This document shows positions 3,191 to 38,857 of a stretch of 39,324 nt of DNA, one piece after another. Numbering within the stretch: the first letter of the stretch is position 1; each line of letters starts with the position of its first letter. The DNA is taken from the IMG/VR virus record IMGVR_UViG_3300041991_000132, positions 1 to 39,324 of that record; one strand, 5' to 3'. Position numbers and translations under genes: made by a program. A model generated the notes under the pieces. It searched no databases. It saw only the letters and a list, made by a program, of their open reading frames with translations, and was not told the DNA's origin. Source of the stretch: a virus.

Positions 3191-5154
3191 TGGCCGACGG
3201 ATCAGGCGCATCGCGCTGGTATACCGCCGCGCTGCTGGCTGGCCTGGCTGGTGTTCCAAGCACTGAACGAAACGTGCGGGAAAAGGCTGATCGAGAAGAG
3301 TGGATATCCCGCCCGCGCGAAGGCCGTGGCGGTGGCAAGGAATACGCCTTCACCAGCCTGCCAGCGATCACCCAAGCCGCCATCCTGCTGCGCGAAAAGC
3401 CGGCCACGGCCACCACGCCACGCCGCAATAAACTCGCCCCCAGCGACGCCCAGCTGAAATCCGCCTGGCAGCGCTACGAGCAGGCCAAGCAGCCCATGAA
3501 AGACGAGGCCGCCATGCGCCTCAAGGCATTGCAAACCGTCGCCAGCCTTGTGCGCAGCGGCACCCCGCTCATGCAGGCACGCGATATCGTCGCCGCCCAG
3601 CTGCAGCGCGACGGCATACGCGGCGGCAGCGCGCCCAGCATCGCCCGCTGGCAGCAGGCGGTGGCGCATGCCGGCCAGCATGACTGGCCCGCGCTGCTGC
3701 TGCCGCACTACACCGGCCGCACCGCCACCGTCGAGATCGAGCCCGAAGCCTGGGAGCTGTTCAAGGCCGACTATCTGCGCCTGGAGCAGCCCACCGCCAG
3801 CAGCTGCTACGACCGCCTGGTACGCATAGCGGCCACGCGCGGGTGGCAGCTGCCCAGCCTCAAGACCTTCACCCGCCGCGTGGTGCGCGAGCTACCCAGG
3901 GCGGTGCGCGTGCTGGCCCGCGAGGGCGAGGAGGCACTCGCCCGCAGTTACCCCGCGCAGATCCGCGACCGCAGCCTGATGGCGGCCCTGCAGGGCGTGA
4001 ACAGCGACGGCCATCGTTGGGACTTCAACGTGGTTTTCCCCGACGGCACCATCGGCCGCCCATGCATCCTCGGCTGGCAAGACCTTTACAGCGGCAAGAT
4101 GCTGTCGTGGCGCCTGTGCGACCACGAATCCAGCGACGTGGTGCGGCTCAGCTTCGGCGACATGGTGCGCCAACACGGCATTCCTGGCAGCGTCTACCTG
4201 GACAACGGCCGCGCCTTTGCCAGCAAGTGGATGACCGGCGGCACACCCAACCGCTACCGCTTCAAAGTGCGCGAGGAAGACCCCGCCGGCCTGATCACCA
4301 CCCTGGTCGGCGCCGAGAACGTGCACTGGGTCACCCCGTACCACGGCCAGGCAAAACCCATCGAGCGCGCCTGGCGTGACTTCTGCGATCGCATCGCCAA
4401 GCACCCCGCGTTCGCCGGCGCCTACGTCGGCAACAACGTGATGAACAAGCCCGAGAACTACGGCAGCCGCGCGGTGGCCTGGGACGAGTTCGAGCGCGTC
4501 GTCAACAGCGAGATCCACGCCCACAACGCTCGCGTCGGCCGGCGCACCACCGTCTGCGCCGGGCGCAGCTTCGACCAGGCATTCGCCGCCAGCTACGCCA
4601 CCATCACCGTGCGCAAAGTCAGCGAGGAACAGCTGCGCCAGTTGCTGCTGGCCGCCGAGGCCGTCACCGCCAGCCCGATCGATGGCAGCGTGCGCCTGGC
4701 CGGCAACCGCTACTGGACAGAGGCACTCAGCGAGCACGCCGGCCGCAAGGTGGTGCTGCGCGTCGACCCCTGGCACCTGCAGGGCGTGGCGCACGTCTAC
4801 GCACTGGACGGCACCTACATCGGCGATGCGCCATGCACCGCCGCCGTCGGCTTCGCCGATACCCAGGCGGCGCGCGAGCATGCACGCGGCAAGAAGCAAT
4901 ACAAGCGCGCCGCAAAAGACATGCTCGCCGCCGAGCGGCTGATGGACGCCGCCAGCGTCGCCGCGCAACTGCCCAACGTCGAGCCGCCCGGCATGCCGAT
5001 CGCCACCGTGCTGGCGCCGGTGTTCGGCCTGCACGGCAAGAAGCCCGAGCCACAAGCGCAGCGCATGGCAGCCACCGGTACCGATGGCCCGAGCAAGCTT
5101 GATCTCTTCGCGACGGCCTACCAGCGCCAGCGCAAGGAGGAATCCCTTGACTAA
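3190..5154 (+). CDS. A: MuA-type DDE transposase
   Basis: This 654-residue protein cuts and joins the phage ends for integration and replicative transposition. An N-terminal winged-helix DNA-binding region (about 5-65) is followed by a helical end-binding region (about 85-250). The RNase H-like core carries D273 in NSDGHRW, D338 in YLDNGRAFASKW, and E392 in KPIERAW. These correspond almost residue for residue to MuA D269, D336 and E392. A beta-barrel and a basic C-terminal tail (about 480-640) match MuA domains II and III. ATG at 3190 overlaps the preceding stop; longer upstream frames lack support. It should bind the TTTGCAAA sites and be activated by the ATPase at 5787. Confidence 0.97.
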   Translation: MADGSGASRWYTAALLAGLAGVPSTERNVREKADREEWISRPREGRGGGKEYAFTSLPAITQAAILLREKPATATTPRRNKLAPSDAQLKSAWQRYEQAKQPMKDEAAMRLKALQTVASLVRSGTPLMQARDIVAAQLQRDGIRGGSAPSIARWQQAVAHAGQHDWPALLLPHYTGRTATVEIEPEAWELFKADYLRLEQPTASSCYDRLVRIAATRGWQLPSLKTFTRRVVRELPRAVRVLAREGEEALARSYPAQIRDRSLMAALQGVNSDGHRWDFNVVFPDGTIGRPCILGWQDLYSGKMLSWRLCDHESSDVVRLSFGDMVRQHGIPGSVYLDNGRAFASKWMTGGTPNRYRFKVREEDPAGLITTLVGAENVHWVTPYHGQAKPIERAWRDFCDRIAKHPAFAGAYVGNNVMNKPENYGSRAVAWDEFERVVNSEIHAHNARVGRRTTVCAGRSFDQAFAASYATITVRKVSEEQLRQLLLAAEAVTASPIDGSVRLAGNRYWTEALSEHAGRKVVLRVDPWHLQGVAHVYALDGTYIGDAPCTAAVGFADTQAAREHARGKKQYKRAAKDMLAAERLMDAASVAAQLPNVEPPGMPIATVLAPVFGLHGKKPEPQAQRMAATGTDGPSKLDLFATAYQRQRKEESLD

Positions 5155-12373: not shown

Positions 12374-12418
12374 CTGAAGCGCTTCAGCCTGACCGCTTCG
12401 ACCCCCACTCCGTAGCCT
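12374..12418 (+). promoter_or_regulatory. candidate Mor/C-dependent promoter before the lysis genes
   Basis: A perfect 14-bp palindrome, CTGAAGCGCTTCAG (12374-12387), is followed by CCTGACCGC. The same arrangement with two base changes recurs at 21502-21524. A weak -10-like TAGCCT (12413-12418) starts 39 bases after the palindrome start, the same spacing as at the second site. There is no good -35. The dyad position fits activator-dependent Mu-type promoters. The rest of 12369-12504 holds a small hairpin (CGCATCG/CGATGCG near 12428-12443) and no gene. Confidence 0.6.
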
Positions 12419-18836: not shown

Positions 18837-20210
18837 ATGGGCGCCACCAGCGCCGGCCCGGTACCGCAGGAGGCCATCGACTACCTGAAGGCGAAGCGGC
18901 TCAAGCCCGGCTTCGACTACCGCGACGTGTGGCGCGAGGAGCACGCCAGCGCGTTCACCGTAGCAAAGATGGGCGAGCTGGACATGCTCAGCGACACCCG
19001 TGACTCGCTGGTCGAGGCGCTGGGCAAGGGGCAGACCTTTCGCACCTGGTCAAAGCAGATCACCCCCGAGCTGCAGAAGCGCGGCTGGTGGGGCGTGCAG
19101 GAGGCCACCGACCCGCTCACCGGCGATCGCGGCCTGGTGCAGCTGGGCTCGCCGCGACGGCTGAAGACGATCTACGAGGCCAACCTGCGCACCGCGCGCG
19201 CGGCCGGCCAGTGGGAGCGGATCCAGCGCACCAAGGTCACGCACCCGTTCCTGCTGTACCAGCTGGGGCCCAGCGCGCACCACCGGCCACAGCACGTGGC
19301 GTGGTCGGGCACCGTCCTGCCGGTGGATGACCCGTTCTGGAGCTACGCCTACCCGCCCAACGGCTACGGCTGCAAATGCTGGGTGCGCCAGGTCAGCCGC
19401 GGCGAATACGGCCGCCTGCGGGACAAGGGCTACCAGGATCCGCTGGCGCCCATGCAGCTCAACCCCGATACCGGCCTGCCTACCGGCCACCGCGAGACGC
19501 GCCTGCTCCAGGTGAAGACCGAAGCACCGCCGGTGAAGTACCGGCGCTGGGTAAACAAGCGCACCGGCGAAGTGGAGCGTGTGGTCGACGGCATCGACCC
19601 CGGCTGGGACACCAACCCCGGTCAGGCCGCGCGCAAGCAGCAGCTGGCGCAGGAGTTCATGCGCTCGGTGAACCGCGCACCGGCCGCCGCCGGCGCCAGC
19701 GCGATGGCGCAGGTGATGCCGGTCATCCAGGGCGACCTGCAGAACGCCTATGGCGAGTGGGTGGACGCCATTGCCGATGGCAGCCTGGCCGACGCCGGCG
19801 GCCGCCGCACCATCGGCGCGCTGAGCCCGCAGATCGTGCGCGCGCTGCACGAGCGGGTGGGCGTGGTGCCCAAGACCGCCGGGCTGACGATCGAGCAGCG
19901 CGAGGTGAGCCACCTGCTTGCCGAGGCGCGCAAGGGCGACAAGTCGCTGACGCTGCTGCAGGTGCGTCACCTGGTGCACTACCTGGCCAGCCCGGAGGCC
20001 GTGATCTGGGACAGCACAGGCAAATTCCCCGCGCTGCTCTACGTGCTGGAAAGGGATATGGCTGATGGCAAGTACGGCCGGCTGGCCGTGCGTATCGACT
20101 TTGCCCGCGATGGCGTGCAGATCAATGCGATTCGCAGCGGTGGCCGGGTGGCCAAGGCCAACCTGGAACAGGCTGGCATGGTGCGTCTGGACAAGGGTGG
20201 TGCACTGTAG
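18837..20210 (+). CDS. F: MuF head-morphogenesis protein with possible C-terminal nuclease-like domain
   Basis: This 457-residue protein resembles Mu gp30/F: an N-terminal helical region, then the MuF domain (about 60-190) with its HxxW-type stretch and PPNGYGCKCW at 173-182. After a linker, a separate C-terminal domain (about 345-457) contains LTLLQVRHLVHYLASPEAV, then WDSTGKFPALLYVLE and RLAVRIDF. MuF proteins of temperate phages are known to carry variable toxin/PBECR-type nuclease domains at this end, and the pattern here is compatible with that. The MuF assignment is firm; the nuclease assignment is tentative. Two bases separate it from the portal gene. Confidence 0.92.
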   Translation: MGATSAGPVPQEAIDYLKAKRLKPGFDYRDVWREEHASAFTVAKMGELDMLSDTRDSLVEALGKGQTFRTWSKQITPELQKRGWWGVQEATDPLTGDRGLVQLGSPRRLKTIYEANLRTARAAGQWERIQRTKVTHPFLLYQLGPSAHHRPQHVAWSGTVLPVDDPFWSYAYPPNGYGCKCWVRQVSRGEYGRLRDKGYQDPLAPMQLNPDTGLPTGHRETRLLQVKTEAPPVKYRRWVNKRTGEVERVVDGIDPGWDTNPGQAARKQQLAQEFMRSVNRAPAAAGASAMAQVMPVIQGDLQNAYGEWVDAIADGSLADAGGRRTIGALSPQIVRALHERVGVVPKTAGLTIEQREVSHLLAEARKGDKSLTLLQVRHLVHYLASPEAVIWDSTGKFPALLYVLERDMADGKYGRLAVRIDFARDGVQINAIRSGGRVAKANLEQAGMVRLDKGGAL

Positions 20211-20554
20211 CCGCGGTGGGACGCCCTCCAGGTCAAACCTGGCACCCCCACATGGAAGCTCGGAAGCAACCACTGGCCCGGCGATTTTCCAGTCTTCGCG
20301 GCGACAGCGTGCCGAGTATATCGCTTGCGAAGCGCATTTGCGGGGCGTATAAATTGGGGCACGGGCTTCAAAACCCGTTTACTCAACAGACGGAACCGCC
20401 ACCGACACCATGCGGGCTTTCGACTTCTATCGTTTACGGCCGGGTGGCTGCAGCCATACAACACCCTTCGGGGGAAAGCTGCGGGCCACATCTGTTGGTG
20501 GTTTTGAACCGCCCGGCCACCTATTCGCCTTCAAAAGCGACAACAGGAGTCACC
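20211..20554 (+). promoter_or_regulatory. structured leader region, no confident gene
   Basis: This 344-base stretch has several foldable elements. They are a CCAGGT/ACCTGG hairpin (20228-20242), ACGGG...CCCGT around a CTTCAAAA loop, and a long-range stem GGCCGGGTGG (20438-20447) with CCGCCCGGCC (20509-20518, one G-U). The long stem encloses a CCC-TTCG-GGG tetraloop (20464-20473). An open frame runs through it into the next gene, and I considered an Ash/Icd-like phage leader peptide. The density of paired elements suggests an RNA element controlling the two genes downstream. Confidence 0.5.
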
Positions 20555-20779
20555 ATGAATATTGCGACCGTAAGCATCTCTCCACAGGGCATTGAACGCG
20601 CCCGCCAGTTGATCGACGTCATCAGCCTGATCGGTCAAGCCGCGCCAACGCGAGTCAAAAGCGAAGCCGCAAGTGAACTGGACGAGGTGATCACGCTGTT
20701 CCTCGCCGCCATCAATACCGCTGAAATGTCTCCGCCGCCGCGCACCGGCACGGTCTCGCATCTTTCCCTGGTCAAATAG
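20555..20779 (+). CDS. small hypothetical accessory protein
   Basis: This 74-residue protein starts at ATG 20555 with ACAGGAG upstream. It is a mostly helical product (ISPQGIERARQLIDVISLIG, then SEAASELDEVITLFLAAINT). No known domain is recognised. An upstream start at 20216 in the same frame would add 113 unusual residues translated from the structured leader, and I do not favour it. It lies between MuF and the protease, where Mu has gene G, so it is accessory rather than structural by context. Confidence 0.6.
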   Translation: MNIATVSISPQGIERARQLIDVISLIGQAAPTRVKSEAASELDEVITLFLAAINTAEMSPPPRTGTVSHLSLVK

Positions 20780-20789
20780 GACCGCCGCC

Positions 20790-21314
20790 ATGTATCAGAA
20801 GACCTACGCCATCGACACCACCGGCCTGGATCAGGATCAGGTGATCGCCTTTCTTTCCACCGTGTTTGAGGCGCTCGGGGTTCACTCGAGAACTGTTGGA
20901 AGGCCTCCTTTGTTACCAGCACGGCTGGCCATGAAGGCGCCAGACGCGTTTCGCTTCGTCACCGGGGCGCCTGATGAATGGTTGACGACGGAGCGGCAGC
21001 TATTTGCCGAAGCGTGCTTCTCGATCACCTTCGGCTGCGGCCTGTCCCATGCCCATCAGCGCTGGGTCAATGATGCGCACTGGTCACCGCACAACCCGCG
21101 CGCGCATGACGACTTGGCAAATGCCCGGATCGATCTTGAATTTCTGGATCAGTTCGGCATGAATATGTCAGGCTGGGATGAGACGTTCGGAACGTCCGGA
21201 TTTTTGAGCCGTTCCGCCAAGAATTTGGACTCCGCCGGAGACAGGATAAGGGTGGTGATTGGCCTTTCGATGCTCGGATTTTCCGACCCGATGCAATTTT
21301 TCACCCGACGCTAG
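20790..21314 (+). CDS. unknown accessory protein (moron candidate)
   Basis: This 174-residue soluble protein (MYQKTYAIDTTGLDQDQ...) has no signal peptide or membrane segment. Aromatic and His/Trp-rich middle parts (CGLSHAHQRWVNDAHWSPHN at about 89-108) could hold a catalytic or metal site. No family is recognised. It starts 11 bases after the previous stop. Its composition is less GC-biased than the flanking head genes, suggesting separate acquisition. It is followed by about 190 bp without a gene and then the second late-promoter palindrome. Confidence 0.65.
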   Translation: MYQKTYAIDTTGLDQDQVIAFLSTVFEALGVHSRTVGRPPLLPARLAMKAPDAFRFVTGAPDEWLTTERQLFAEACFSITFGCGLSHAHQRWVNDAHWSPHNPRAHDDLANARIDLEFLDQFGMNMSGWDETFGTSGFLSRSAKNLDSAGDRIRVVIGLSMLGFSDPMQFFTRR

Positions 21315-21501
21315 CCCTTCGCATGGCTCTTCAAAGGCCGTTAAATGGGGCGGTGGAGATTCTTTTCCCCCGGGGTAGCCAGCGTAGCAATAGCATCCAA
21401 GGCGGCGCTTAGAACGCGATTTTGGGCGCCCCCGATTTTTAGCCCTTGCATCGGCCAACCCCGCTGGCGCATCCTGATCCCGCCCAAGCCCCGCCGTCTG
21501 A

Positions 21502-21546
21502 CTGAAGTGTTTCAGCCTGACCGCGCCAGCCGGGCATCGGCAACAT
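21502..21546 (+). promoter_or_regulatory. second candidate Mor/C-dependent promoter
   Basis: CTGAAGTGTTTCAG (21502-21515) followed by CCTGACCGC (21516-21524) repeats the 12374-12396 element with only two changes in 23 bases. A weak -10-like CAACAT (21541-21546) lies at the same 39-base spacing. It would drive the protease/scaffold/capsid block, the place of the Mu PI promoter. The predicted start would be at or next to the ATG at 21553. Upstream 21315-21501 holds no gene that I can support. Confidence 0.6.
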
Positions 21547-21552
21547 GGCTCC

Positions 21553-22560
21553 ATGTTCGCCACTCCGCCCCCTGCCACCGCCCTCTGCGCGGCCGAAACC
21601 TCGGCCGATCGGGCCGCCTTGTGCTTCGCCCTGACCGAGGGCGATGCCGCTGACCTCGCCGCGCCGCAATGGCGTGAGCTGATCCCTGCGCCCAATGCCC
21701 AGGGCAAGGTGCAGGGCATGGACGGCCGCTGGTGGCGCATGACCGACCCGCAGGCCATCGCTACCAACTTCCGGTTGGCACTGGCGGTGGATCTCAACCA
21801 TGCCAGCGAGCTGGTGGCGCCCAAGGGCGGCGAAGCACCGGCATACGGCTGGGTGGAAAAGCTCGAAGTGCGCCAGGGCGCGGTGTGGGGCTTGGTCGCC
21901 TGGAACGCCAAGGGCCAGCAGGCCGTTGCCGGCAAGGAGTACCGATTCCTGTCGCCGGTGTTCAAGTTCGACCCGACCTCACGCGAGATCAAACGGCTGA
22001 CCAGCGTCGCGCTGGTCAACGAACCCAACTTTCCCCTGGCGCTCAACCGCGCCACCGACCAGGAGACACCCCCCGTGGATGAAGCTATCCGCAAGGCCCT
22101 CGGCTTGCCCGAGCAGGCCACGGCCGACCAAGCCGTGACCGCGATCAATTCGCTGCGCAGCTCCGCCGGCACACCGCCGCTGGACAAGTTCGTGCCGCGC
22201 GCCGACTACGACACCGCGCTCAACCGGGCGACCACCGCCGAGACGTCGCTGCGCGAGCGTGACGAGGCCAACAAGAAGGCCACGATCGACGCGGCGATCG
22301 ACGGCGCGCTGAGGGCCGGCAAGATCACGCCCGCCACCGTGGACTACCACAAGGCCAGCTGCGCGGCCGAGGGTGGCCTGGAACGCTTCAAGGCGTTCGT
22401 GGAGGCTGCGCCCGCCGTGGCTGACGCCAGCGGCCTGGAGGGCAAGGCCATGCCAGGCAACGACCCCAAGGCGCTCAACGGCGCCGCCAAGACCATCGCG
22501 GGGATGTTCGGCAACAGCGCCGAGGACATCGCCAAGTACGGTCAACAGGAGACCGCATAA
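21553..22560 (+). CDS. I: prohead protease with fused scaffold (Mu I-like)
   Basis: This 335-residue protein matures the capsid. The N-terminal part (about 25-170) is Mu gpI/peptidase U35-like, with WRELIPAPNAQGKVQGMDGR and EYRFLSPVFKFD, then TSVALVNEPNFP, as in Mu-type proteases. The C-terminal part (about 175-335) is the helical scaffold. No ribosome site is obvious before ATG 21553, and the candidate promoter lies so close that a leaderless message is possible. An internal in-frame start gives the scaffold alone. Confidence 0.88.
   Translation: MFATPPPATALCAAETSADRAALCFALTEGDAADLAAPQWRELIPAPNAQGKVQGMDGRWWRMTDPQAIATNFRLALAVDLNHASELVAPKGGEAPAYGWVEKLEVRQGAVWGLVAWNAKGQQAVAGKEYRFLSPVFKFDPTSREIKRLTSVALVNEPNFPLALNRATDQETPPVDEAIRKALGLPEQATADQAVTAINSLRSSAGTPPLDKFVPRADYDTALNRATTAETSLRERDEANKKATIDAAIDGALRAGKITPATVDYHKASCAAEGGLERFKAFVEAAPAVADASGLEGKAMPGNDPKALNGAAKTIAGMFGNSAEDIAKYGQQETA
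22075..22560 (+). CDS. Z: internal scaffold protein, in-frame start inside the protease gene (Mu Z-like)
   Basis: A GTG at 22075, in frame with the protease, is preceded 8 bases upstream by AGGAGA. It would yield a 161-residue protein equal to the protease C-terminal half (starting DEAIRKALGLPEQ). In Mu the scaffold Z is made the same way from the 3' part of gene I. The sequence is helical and charged (TSLRERDEANKKATIDAAID), as scaffolds are. The start is inferred from the ribosome site and the Mu precedent. Confidence 0.68.
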   Translation: MDEAIRKALGLPEQATADQAVTAINSLRSSAGTPPLDKFVPRADYDTALNRATTAETSLRERDEANKKATIDAAIDGALRAGKITPATVDYHKASCAAEGGLERFKAFVEAAPAVADASGLEGKAMPGNDPKALNGAAKTIAGMFGNSAEDIAKYGQQETA

Positions 22561-24301: not shown

Positions 24302-24712
24302 ATGAGCTACGCCGCACAAACCGACATCGACAGCCGCTACGGCACCGACCTGCTGCTGACCATTGCCGATCGCAACGGCGACGGCGTGGTGGACGGCGAC
24401 GCCGTACTGCTGGCGCTGTCCGATGCCGACGACATCATCGACTCGCACCTGGCGCAGCGGTATCAGATGCCGCTGGCCACGGTGCCGCCGATGCTGGTGC
24501 GCCTGGCGGTGGATCTGACTATCTACCAGCTGGCGGTGCTGCCGACCGAGGAGATGCGCAACCGCTACACCGAGGCGCTGCGCGTGCTGAAGAACCTGGC
24601 TACCGGCGTGCAGCAGCTGGATCTGGCGCCGCCGCCCTCCACCGAAGGGCAGCAGGCCACGTTGATGGCGCCGCCGCGCATGTTTGGCCGCGGTACGGTG
24701 CGCAACCTATGA
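24302..24712 (+). CDS. DUF1320 head-completion-like protein (Mu gp36-like)
   Basis: This 136-residue protein begins MSYAAQTDIDSRYG and includes DADDIIDSHLAQRYQMPLA at about 42-60 and a helical C-terminal half with DLTIYQL. These are the DUF1320/Mu gp36 marks. It probably forms part of the head-tail connector. ATGA overlap couples it to the next gene. Confidence 0.9.
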   Translation: MSYAAQTDIDSRYGTDLLLTIADRNGDGVVDGDAVLLALSDADDIIDSHLAQRYQMPLATVPPMLVRLAVDLTIYQLAVLPTEEMRNRYTEALRVLKNLATGVQQLDLAPPPSTEGQQATLMAPPRMFGRGTVRNL

Positions 24713-25179
24713 GCGGGCTGGGCATGGAGTGGGCCATTGTCGACTTCGCCGCGTTGCAGCGGCGGGTGGATGCAATGGCGCACCTGGACACGCGCGAGCT
24801 GATGGACAGCATCGGCGCCGAAGTGGCCACGCAGACCAAGCGGCGCATCGGCGAGGAGAAGACCTCGCCCGAAGGCCAGTCGTGGCCGGCCTGGTCGGAT
24901 GCCTACGCAGCCACGCGCACAGGTGGACAGAGCCTGCTGCAGAACGAGAACCACCTGCTCGACAGCATTACCCACGTGGTGGAGCTGCAAGGCCAGGAAG
25001 TGGATGTGGGCTCGAACCTGGTGTACGCGCGCATCCAGAACGATGGCGGTGCCGACGTGGGCAAGCCGAACCTGCCTGCCCGTGAGTATGTGGGCCTGTC
25101 AGCCGAGAACCGCATGGACGTGCACCAGGTGGCCAGCGACTGGCTGGACAGCTGGCTGCTGCGCACGGTGATCCAGTGA
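24709..25179 (+). CDS. G: virion morphogenesis / tail completion protein (Mu G-like)
   Basis: This 156-residue protein matches the phage virion morphogenesis family. Marks are RELMDSIGAEVATQTKRRI at about 26-44, KTSPEGQSWPAWS at about 51-63 and VGSNLVYARIQNDGG at about 100-114. It also has the PAREYVGLS motif. In Mu the equivalent gene G lies between F and I; here it lies after gp36, next to the tail genes. ATGA overlap upstream and GTGA downstream. Confidence 0.9.
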   Translation: MSGLGMEWAIVDFAALQRRVDAMAHLDTRELMDSIGAEVATQTKRRIGEEKTSPEGQSWPAWSDAYAATRTGGQSLLQNENHLLDSITHVVELQGQEVDVGSNLVYARIQNDGGADVGKPNLPAREYVGLSAENRMDVHQVASDWLDSWLLRTVIQ

Positions 25180-37975: not shown

Positions 37976-38062
37976 CCACGTGAGATGTGGATCAAGCAAG
38001 GCCCCTAGCCGGTACCGGCATGGAAAGCCTAGAACCGTGCGATCTCATATGTGGAGACACTG

Positions 38063-38857
38063 ATGGCCCTTCCGATCATTCCCTGGCTGGGTGGCAAGCG
38101 CCGCTTGGCTGACCGGATTTTCAAGTTCTTTGACAACACGCACACCTGCTATGTCGAGCCCTTCGCCGGCGGCGCTGCTTTGTTCTTCCTGAAGCCGTCG
38201 TGCGAGGTCGAGGTGATCAACGACATCAACGGCGATCTGATCAATCTCTACCGCGTAGTGCAGAACCACCTGGAAGAGTTCGTTCGGCAGTTCAAGTGGG
38301 CGTTGAGCAGCCGCAAGGTGTTCGAGTGGCTCAAGATTACTCGGCCCGAAACCCTGACCGATATCCAGCGCGCTGCCCGCTTCTATTACCTGCAGCAGAG
38401 CGCGTTCGGCGGCAAGGTCACCGGGCAAAGCTATGGCACCGCGACCACGGCGCCGCCGGGCCTGAATCTGCTGCGTATCGAGGAGACGCTCTCGGCGGCA
38501 CACCTTCGCCTCGCCAACGCCTACATCGAGCACCTGCCGTGGCGCGAATGCGTGGCCAAATACGACCGCTCGCACACCCTGTTCTTCATGGACCCGCCTT
38601 ACTGGGAGACCGAGGGCTACGGCGTCGACTTCGGCTGGGAGCAGTACCAGGCGCTGGCCGAGACGCTGGCCACCATCAAGGGCCATGCCATCCTCACCCT
38701 CAATGACCACCCCGCCATCCGTGAGCTGTTCTCCGCCTTCCACATTGAGCGCGCCGAGCACACCTACACGGTCGGCGGAGGCGCCAATGCCAAGGAAGTT
38801 GGGGAGGTTCTTATCTTCAGCTGGGACGTGGTGGCGGAGCCTGCGGGCCTGTTCTAG
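38063..38857 (+). CDS. D12-class N6-adenine DNA methyltransferase (Dam-like)
   Basis: This 264-residue enzyme transfers methyl from SAM to adenine N6. PWLGGKRRLA at 7-16, motif I VEPFAGGAALFF at 31-42, NDINGDL at 53-59 and motif IV FMDPPYW at 175-181 mark the D12/Dam class. ATG 38063 has GGAG 6 bases upstream. It occupies the position of the Mu mom modification gene at the right end. Two GATC sites (37990-37993 and 38041-38044) lie upstream. It probably protects phage DNA from host restriction; the target sequence cannot be read from this. Confidence 0.93.
   Translation: MALPIIPWLGGKRRLADRIFKFFDNTHTCYVEPFAGGAALFFLKPSCEVEVINDINGDLINLYRVVQNHLEEFVRQFKWALSSRKVFEWLKITRPETLTDIQRAARFYYLQQSAFGGKVTGQSYGTATTAPPGLNLLRIEETLSAAHLRLANAYIEHLPWRECVAKYDRSHTLFFMDPPYWETEGYGVDFGWEQYQALAETLATIKGHAILTLNDHPAIRELFSAFHIERAEHTYTVGGGANAKEVGEVLIFSWDVVAEPAGLF

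Follow-up and report, generated by a model that had tools for sequence, protein, structure and literature searches.

What lies between the MuF gene and the head protease gene of a phage related to Mu, when that interval holds two genes of no recognised family, and how are these genes kept in check? The question is raised by one virus record of IMG/VR, 39,324 bases long, which was analysed at full length and is called the window here. The Mu transposase, MuB, Gp27, the Mu portal, MuF, the Mu I protease, Gp36 and a gpG-like protein were recognised in it, and by this gene content the window is a Mu-like phage. At its right end lies a D12-class adenine methyltransferase (38051-38857), in the place that the DNA modification gene takes in Mu. 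The minor head protein MuF (18837-20210; PF04233, E 3e-15; phrog_220) forms the left neighbour of the interval, and the Mu I-like head protease (21553-22560; PF10123, E 6.9e-42) the right one. The roughly 1.3 kb between them hold ORF74 (20555-20779) and ORF174 (20790-21314). All these head and insert genes lie on the plus strand, as do the gpG homolog, the candidate promoter and the RNA with its arms and targets described below. An earlier note on this DNA had mapped the interval in the same way, from the end of MuF at 20210 through both reading frames to the protease at 21553, and the map proved correct.

The same note had read the block as an accessory module that replaces gene G of Mu. The replacement is ruled out by a homolog of Mu gpG (Phage_tail_S, PF05069, E 2.7e-18), which sits downstream at 24709-25179; in phage B23 of the Alteromonadaceae, a virion morphogenesis gene occupies the same place. 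The module itself is real.

Close relatives at the MuF/protease site are the viral contigs L002 (the same contig as L158), L156 and L157. In a pairwise alignment with L002, whose MuF is 78% identical to that of the window, similarity extends to about 20316 and resumes from TTCAAAGGCCGTTAAA at about 21330; the insert is, therefore, about 1 kb in size (approximately 20322-21330). In all three relatives, the gap carries no genes and a short noncoding stretch leads directly to the protease. The corresponding 273-bp gap of phage B23 is also gene-free. Further, the GC content is 0.57 in the insert and about 0.69 in the head genes beside it (portal and MuF); the third-position GC (GC3) is 0.69 in the insert and about 0.90 in the same two genes. 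The insert is thus missing from the same place in relatives and differs from its surroundings in composition, the two marks of a moron. Judged by this comparison, it is accessory, as the note had proposed, and foreign in composition. Only one of the five phages compared, that of the window, carries anything in the gap. This is enough to speak of an accessory insert, but it is insufficient for the 'cargo hotspot' that, according to the note, variable content at this junction would mark.

Just outside the insert, about 100 nt of noncoding DNA follow the MuF stop (20211-20311). This DNA is common to the relatives with an empty site and is near-invariant in four phages (L002 7369-7470; the same place in L156 and L157). 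It includes 49 identical nucleotides, though the MuF proteins of the window and L002 differ as much as stated above. It can fold, with one co-varying pair, and it lies close to the genome centre (19.7 kb). In Mu, the strong gyrase site has this central position, near genes G and I (PMC10052514). That the element is such a site would be a guess from its position; no similarity was found between it and the candidate gyrase site of phage Ab30.

The insert may have its own start signal. A candidate promoter, TTGCGA-17-TATAAA, was read by eye at its left edge (20325-20353); a stricter consensus promoter scan did not report it. Behind the insert, a terminator-like stem is present at 21404-21430, with 1.7 such sites expected by chance. 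Before the protease lies the palindrome CTGAAGTGTTTCAG of a probable late promoter (21502-21515), which is also found upstream of the protease in L002, L156 and L157. A second copy is located at 12374-12387, with 0.16 matches expected in the window. The copies of CTGAAGYGYTTCAG are probably sites for a late activator and correspond in position to Plys and PI of Mu. The palindrome at 21502, its second copy and its presence in the relatives all support the proposal that the module ends before a late promoter.

A scan of the whole window with cmscan returned a single family, RF02221 (sRNA-Xcc1), at 20438-20526. With 69.7 bits, the match exceeds the family's gathering score (53); it spans the full length of the model (1-87) and has an E-value of 8e-11 computed over the whole window. 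The predicted fold consists of a closing stem and two hairpins. The C4 model RF01695 (threshold 45 bits) gave no match in the window at E up to 10, and the c4-2 model RF02944 gave none either; in phage P1, taken as a positive control, RF01695 scored 68.8 bits and c4-a1b1 51 bits. In Rfam, C4 and c4-a1b1 belong to clan CL00128, and RF02221 is assigned to no clan. The 'structured leader' of the earlier note is correct for the RF02221 element, a recognised structure, but not for the leader as a whole, which folds no better than its shuffles (z -1.07). A free 61-aa upstream reading frame (20410-20592) runs through the RNA; it has no family in Pfam, PHROGs or NCBIfam and was taken as a by-product of the RNA sequence.

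It is the pairing capacity of this RNA that gives the leader its likely meaning. The C4 antisense RNA of phages P1 and P7 confers an RNA-based superinfection immunity. In the RF02221 element of the window, the loop of the last hairpin carries an antisense arm b', CTGTTG (20492-20497), and a second arm a', TTTTGAA (20502-20508), is placed between the last hairpin and the closing stem. Downstream, the matching target a2, TTCAAAA (20530-20536), lies ahead of ORF74, and b2, CAACAG (20541-20546), overlaps the Shine-Dalgarno sequence AGGAG of this gene (20545-20549). The arms are thus complementary to a target at the ribosome-binding site of the next gene (20530-20546). A second target, a1/b1 (TTCAAAA...CAACAG, 20367-20389), lies upstream of the RNA in the same place as a1/b1 of P1, a further feature of the C4 type.

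On both strands of the window, the motif TTCAAAA-N(2-20)-CAACAG occurs three times, namely as the two targets and the antisense arm; the expected number is 0.00, with zero occurrences in 100 shuffles. This occurrence in three places and the E-value of 8e-11 exclude chance for the element. The downstream pairing is short, with 7 and 6 bases around a 4-base gap, and dinucleotide shuffles of the downstream region reach the a2/b2 match in 41 of 2000 cases (13 of 2000 for a1/b1). The case, therefore, rests on the joint occurrence in three places and on the set of relatives. A T-run after b1, present in many relatives, is weak in the window. The GG with which the closing stem begins fits the processing site reported for C4-like RNAs (PMC5320573). 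To judge from the sequence, the element would act as a C4-type antisense RNA; its family is RF02221.

The two genes behind the leader were described in the note as a 74-residue helical protein and a 174-residue unrecognised protein with an aromatic, His-rich middle, and both descriptions hold. ORF74 (74 aa), in the position of icd, is predicted to form two helices (pLDDT 65). ORF174 (174 aa), in the position of the effector gene ant, contains CGLSHAHQRWVNDAHW. No family was found for either protein in Pfam, PHROGs, NCBIfam or PADLOC; the last returned nothing for ORF174, and for ORF74 only part of an unrelated model, with E 0.038. Homologs of ORF74 were found neither in viral contigs nor in plasmids. 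For ORF174, searches of phages, plasmids, viral and genome contigs and 369 genomes of the class gave no homolog, and no relative of either protein was found in the C4-type loci. Among 210 genomes of the order to which genome G142 belongs, two weak matches to ORF174 were seen. One (L159; 27% over 85 residues) falls in an overlapping frame of high GC content, lacks a neighbouring RNA element and was put down to chance; the other (L160) contains two stops and was dropped. The structure prediction suggested for 20790-21314 was run on the single sequence, and the resulting model (pLDDT 35) is unusable. No link of the module with the C-terminal domain of MuF was found. In sequence, ORF174 resembles no antirepressor. 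By its position, it is most likely an effector, antirepressor-like or host-directed. A toxin ranks next, and a defence role has in its favour only the general habit of morons.

If the arrangement is a genuine silencing device, arms and targets should change together in other elements. A pattern from the conserved RNA core was scanned over viral contigs, a sample that is biased to the exact core and refers to the matches listed. Among these, 18 loci were checked with Rfam, giving 14 RF02221 matches and no C4; L010 and L015 fall below the RF02221 threshold and yet have the same layout. In nearly all elements among the matches listed, a target for the arms is present at the next ribosome-binding site and another one upstream. 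In 61 distinct classes of elements from this sample, complementarity between arm and target was counted for own pairs and for pairs permuted among the classes (20,000 permutations). The own downstream pairs had 14.6 complementary bases against 9.8 in the permuted ones (z 14), and the own upstream pairs 15.6 against 10.7 (z 16). None of the 20,000 permutations reached the observed means. Arms and targets co-vary across RF02221-type elements.

The first genes downstream of the listed elements include AntA, Rha, Bro-N and ORF6N regulators as well as small-gene pairs. L089 and L108 each have a short gene, of 72 or 69 aa, ahead of a Bro-N or ORF6N antirepressor, the same arrangement as in icd-ant and ORF74-ORF174. 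The viral contig of L108 also carries a Type II hammerhead ribozyme (3355-3425, minus strand; 59.3 bits). At L098 and L125, two RF02221 RNAs stand in tandem within one contig. Further, at six loci of gammaproteobacterial genomes (L130, L132, L144, L145, L150 and L154), an RF02221 RNA with C4-type targets precedes a gene for a SymE-like protein of 66-76 aa, of which that of L130 matches PF08845 with an E-value of 1.8e-12. Four of the six lie in one genome (G142), and no plasmid copy of the SymE-type element was found with L154 as the query. In integron cassettes, sRNA-Xcc1 has been reported upstream of symE (PMC12444791).

In the openly readable papers searched, no record was found of RF02221 as a C4-type class, and the one paper found to name both sRNA-Xcc1 and C4 gives them as separate RNAs. 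The class appears to be unrecorded in that literature. Taken as a whole, the family probably consists of C4-type, cis-encoded antisense leaders that silence the adjacent gene, be it an antirepressor, a SymE toxin or a pair of orphans. The 'trans-acting virulence sRNA' would then be at heart a phage-type switch, and ORF74/ORF174 a new kind of cargo.

How, then, might the module work? The anatomy of the leader, its pairing, the co-variation across relatives and the insertion can be read directly from the sequences compared. We consider it likely that the block is a two-gene moron silenced by a C4-type RNA, in which ORF74 takes the place of icd and ORF174 that of ant. Processing, silencing, polarity and timing are modelled here on P1 and on the C4-like RNAs of A. 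baumannii. A single transcript, started at the candidate promoter, would contain a1/b1, the RF02221 RNA, a2/b2, ORF74 and ORF174. In P1, the C4 RNA is cut from its transcript by RNase P. By analogy with P1 and A. baumannii, the RF02221 RNA would be cut out at the GG that starts the closing stem. Arms a' and b' would then pair with a2/b2, cover the Shine-Dalgarno sequence of ORF74 and stop its translation. ORF174 begins 10 nt behind ORF74, and its AGGA overlaps the ORF74 stop. Coupling or polarity should, therefore, silence it along with ORF74, in the way that ant relies on icd in P1. The RNA made in a lysogen would keep the pair silent, including a copy arriving with a second phage; in a newly entered cell that lacks the RNA, a brief burst of the pair would be expected.

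Other readings of the locus have to be weighed against this one. The plainest takes ORF74 and ORF174 for normal head morphogenesis genes behind an ordinary spacer, and they do lie on the same strand within the head operon. However, it is contradicted by the empty sites of L002, L156, L157 and B23, where the note had expected the same two genes in all relatives if they were essential to the head. The differing composition and the presence of gpG elsewhere also speak against it, and it is extremely improbable. Another reading concerns the RNA, which might be a free trans-acting sRNA like sRNA-Xcc1 that mainly regulates host mRNAs and stands in front of genes by chance. The founding member was indeed cloned, originally from Xanthomonas campestris, and its mapping gave an 88-nt RNA (PMC2996969); Chen 2011, as cited in PMC12444791, applies 'trans-acting' to it in the title, and seven Xylella copies have been assigned trans (bacterial) and plant targets (PMC12189769). 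Nevertheless, a trans RNA does not predict arms that match the next ribosome-binding site and an upstream site and change together with them. A mainly trans role is, for this reason, quite improbable, while an additional trans role beside the cis one is possible.

The remaining readings concern the products. Phage morons often carry anti-phage or superinfection-exclusion functions. The note had named the block as the likeliest place for an undescribed conversion, immunity or anti-phage system, and ORF74 and ORF174 could accordingly act in immunity and be expressed in the lysogen. Both the accessory nature of the insert and its foreign composition would fit, and C4 logic suits a potent product that needs to stay off. 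However, PADLOC, Pfam, PHROGs and NCBIfam gave no match, and a C4-type RNA predicts silence in the lysogen rather than constant expression. The word immunity is partly right in a different sense, since the RNA is of the P1/P7 immunity type, but it would silence the genes of the module itself. We regard the anti-phage reading as unlikely. What stands of the note's interpretation is an accessory insert before a probable late promoter; gene G is not replaced, and the hotspot and the anti-phage or conversion role are not supported. A toxin unit that the RNA keeps silent, similar to a type I toxin-antitoxin system, has more in its favour and is a real, if lesser, possibility. The SymE-like genes behind RF02221 RNAs at six loci provide a precedent, and Icd of P1 blocks cell division (PMC11897509). 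Against this, neither ORF74 nor ORF174 is SymE-like or Icd-like in sequence, and the antisense RNA lies on the same transcript, unlike in classic type I pairs.

The preferred reading, a two-gene moron silenced by its own leader RNA, joins P1-type RNA immunity, the control of SymE toxins in integrons and prophages and many antirepressor switches in one design. It would offer a concrete mechanism for an RNA family hitherto read as a trans-acting virulence or vesicle-borne sRNA. It also leads to a simple target prediction for RF02221 RNAs, namely two arms and the next start codon. In this view, the phage goes to some length to keep ORF174 unexpressed, and the protein would be a good candidate for an effector directed at the host or at a repressor.

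The module may finally be set beside the systems already known. With sRNA-Xcc1 of Xanthomonas integron cassettes, it shares the RF02221 family and the position of the RNA ahead of a short gene; that RNA has so far been described as trans-acting and virulence-regulated, whereas the genes downstream in the window are orphans and not symE. The Group 1 sRNAs of A. baumannii are also prophage-borne RNAs of the C4 type, with a variable a' arm, and are processed from longer transcripts (PMC5320573). They differ in that they were recognised through the C4 model and their targets were not assigned there to the neighbouring genes. The Bro-N/ORF6N modules (L089, L108) similarly begin with a small, helical-looking first gene of 69-72 aa followed by a second gene, which in them is a recognisable antirepressor and in the window is not.

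The closest parallel is the immI operon of P1/P7 (c4-icd-ant), represented in Rfam by RF01695 and RF03163 in clan CL00128. The annotated P1 record gives the order promoter, a1, b1, a 77-nt C4 RNA, a2, b2, icd (73 aa) and ant1. A match to isrK (RF01394) was also seen in the P1 leader between b1 and C4 (L129 331-412, which corresponds to P1 48230-48311), at 35 bits (threshold 50), and isrK and the c4 leader may be related. In both systems, a promoter, which in the window is a candidate, is followed by a1-b1, an RNA of about 80 nt, a2-b2 at a ribosome-binding site, a gene of about 73 aa and then a larger gene. Both RNAs fold into two hairpins and a closing stem; the last hairpin carries b' in its loop, and a' adjoins the closing stem. 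Nevertheless, neither the arm sequences nor ORF74 and ORF174 are related to their P1 counterparts, and where the P1 operon lies in the immunity region, the module of the window is a moron in the late region.
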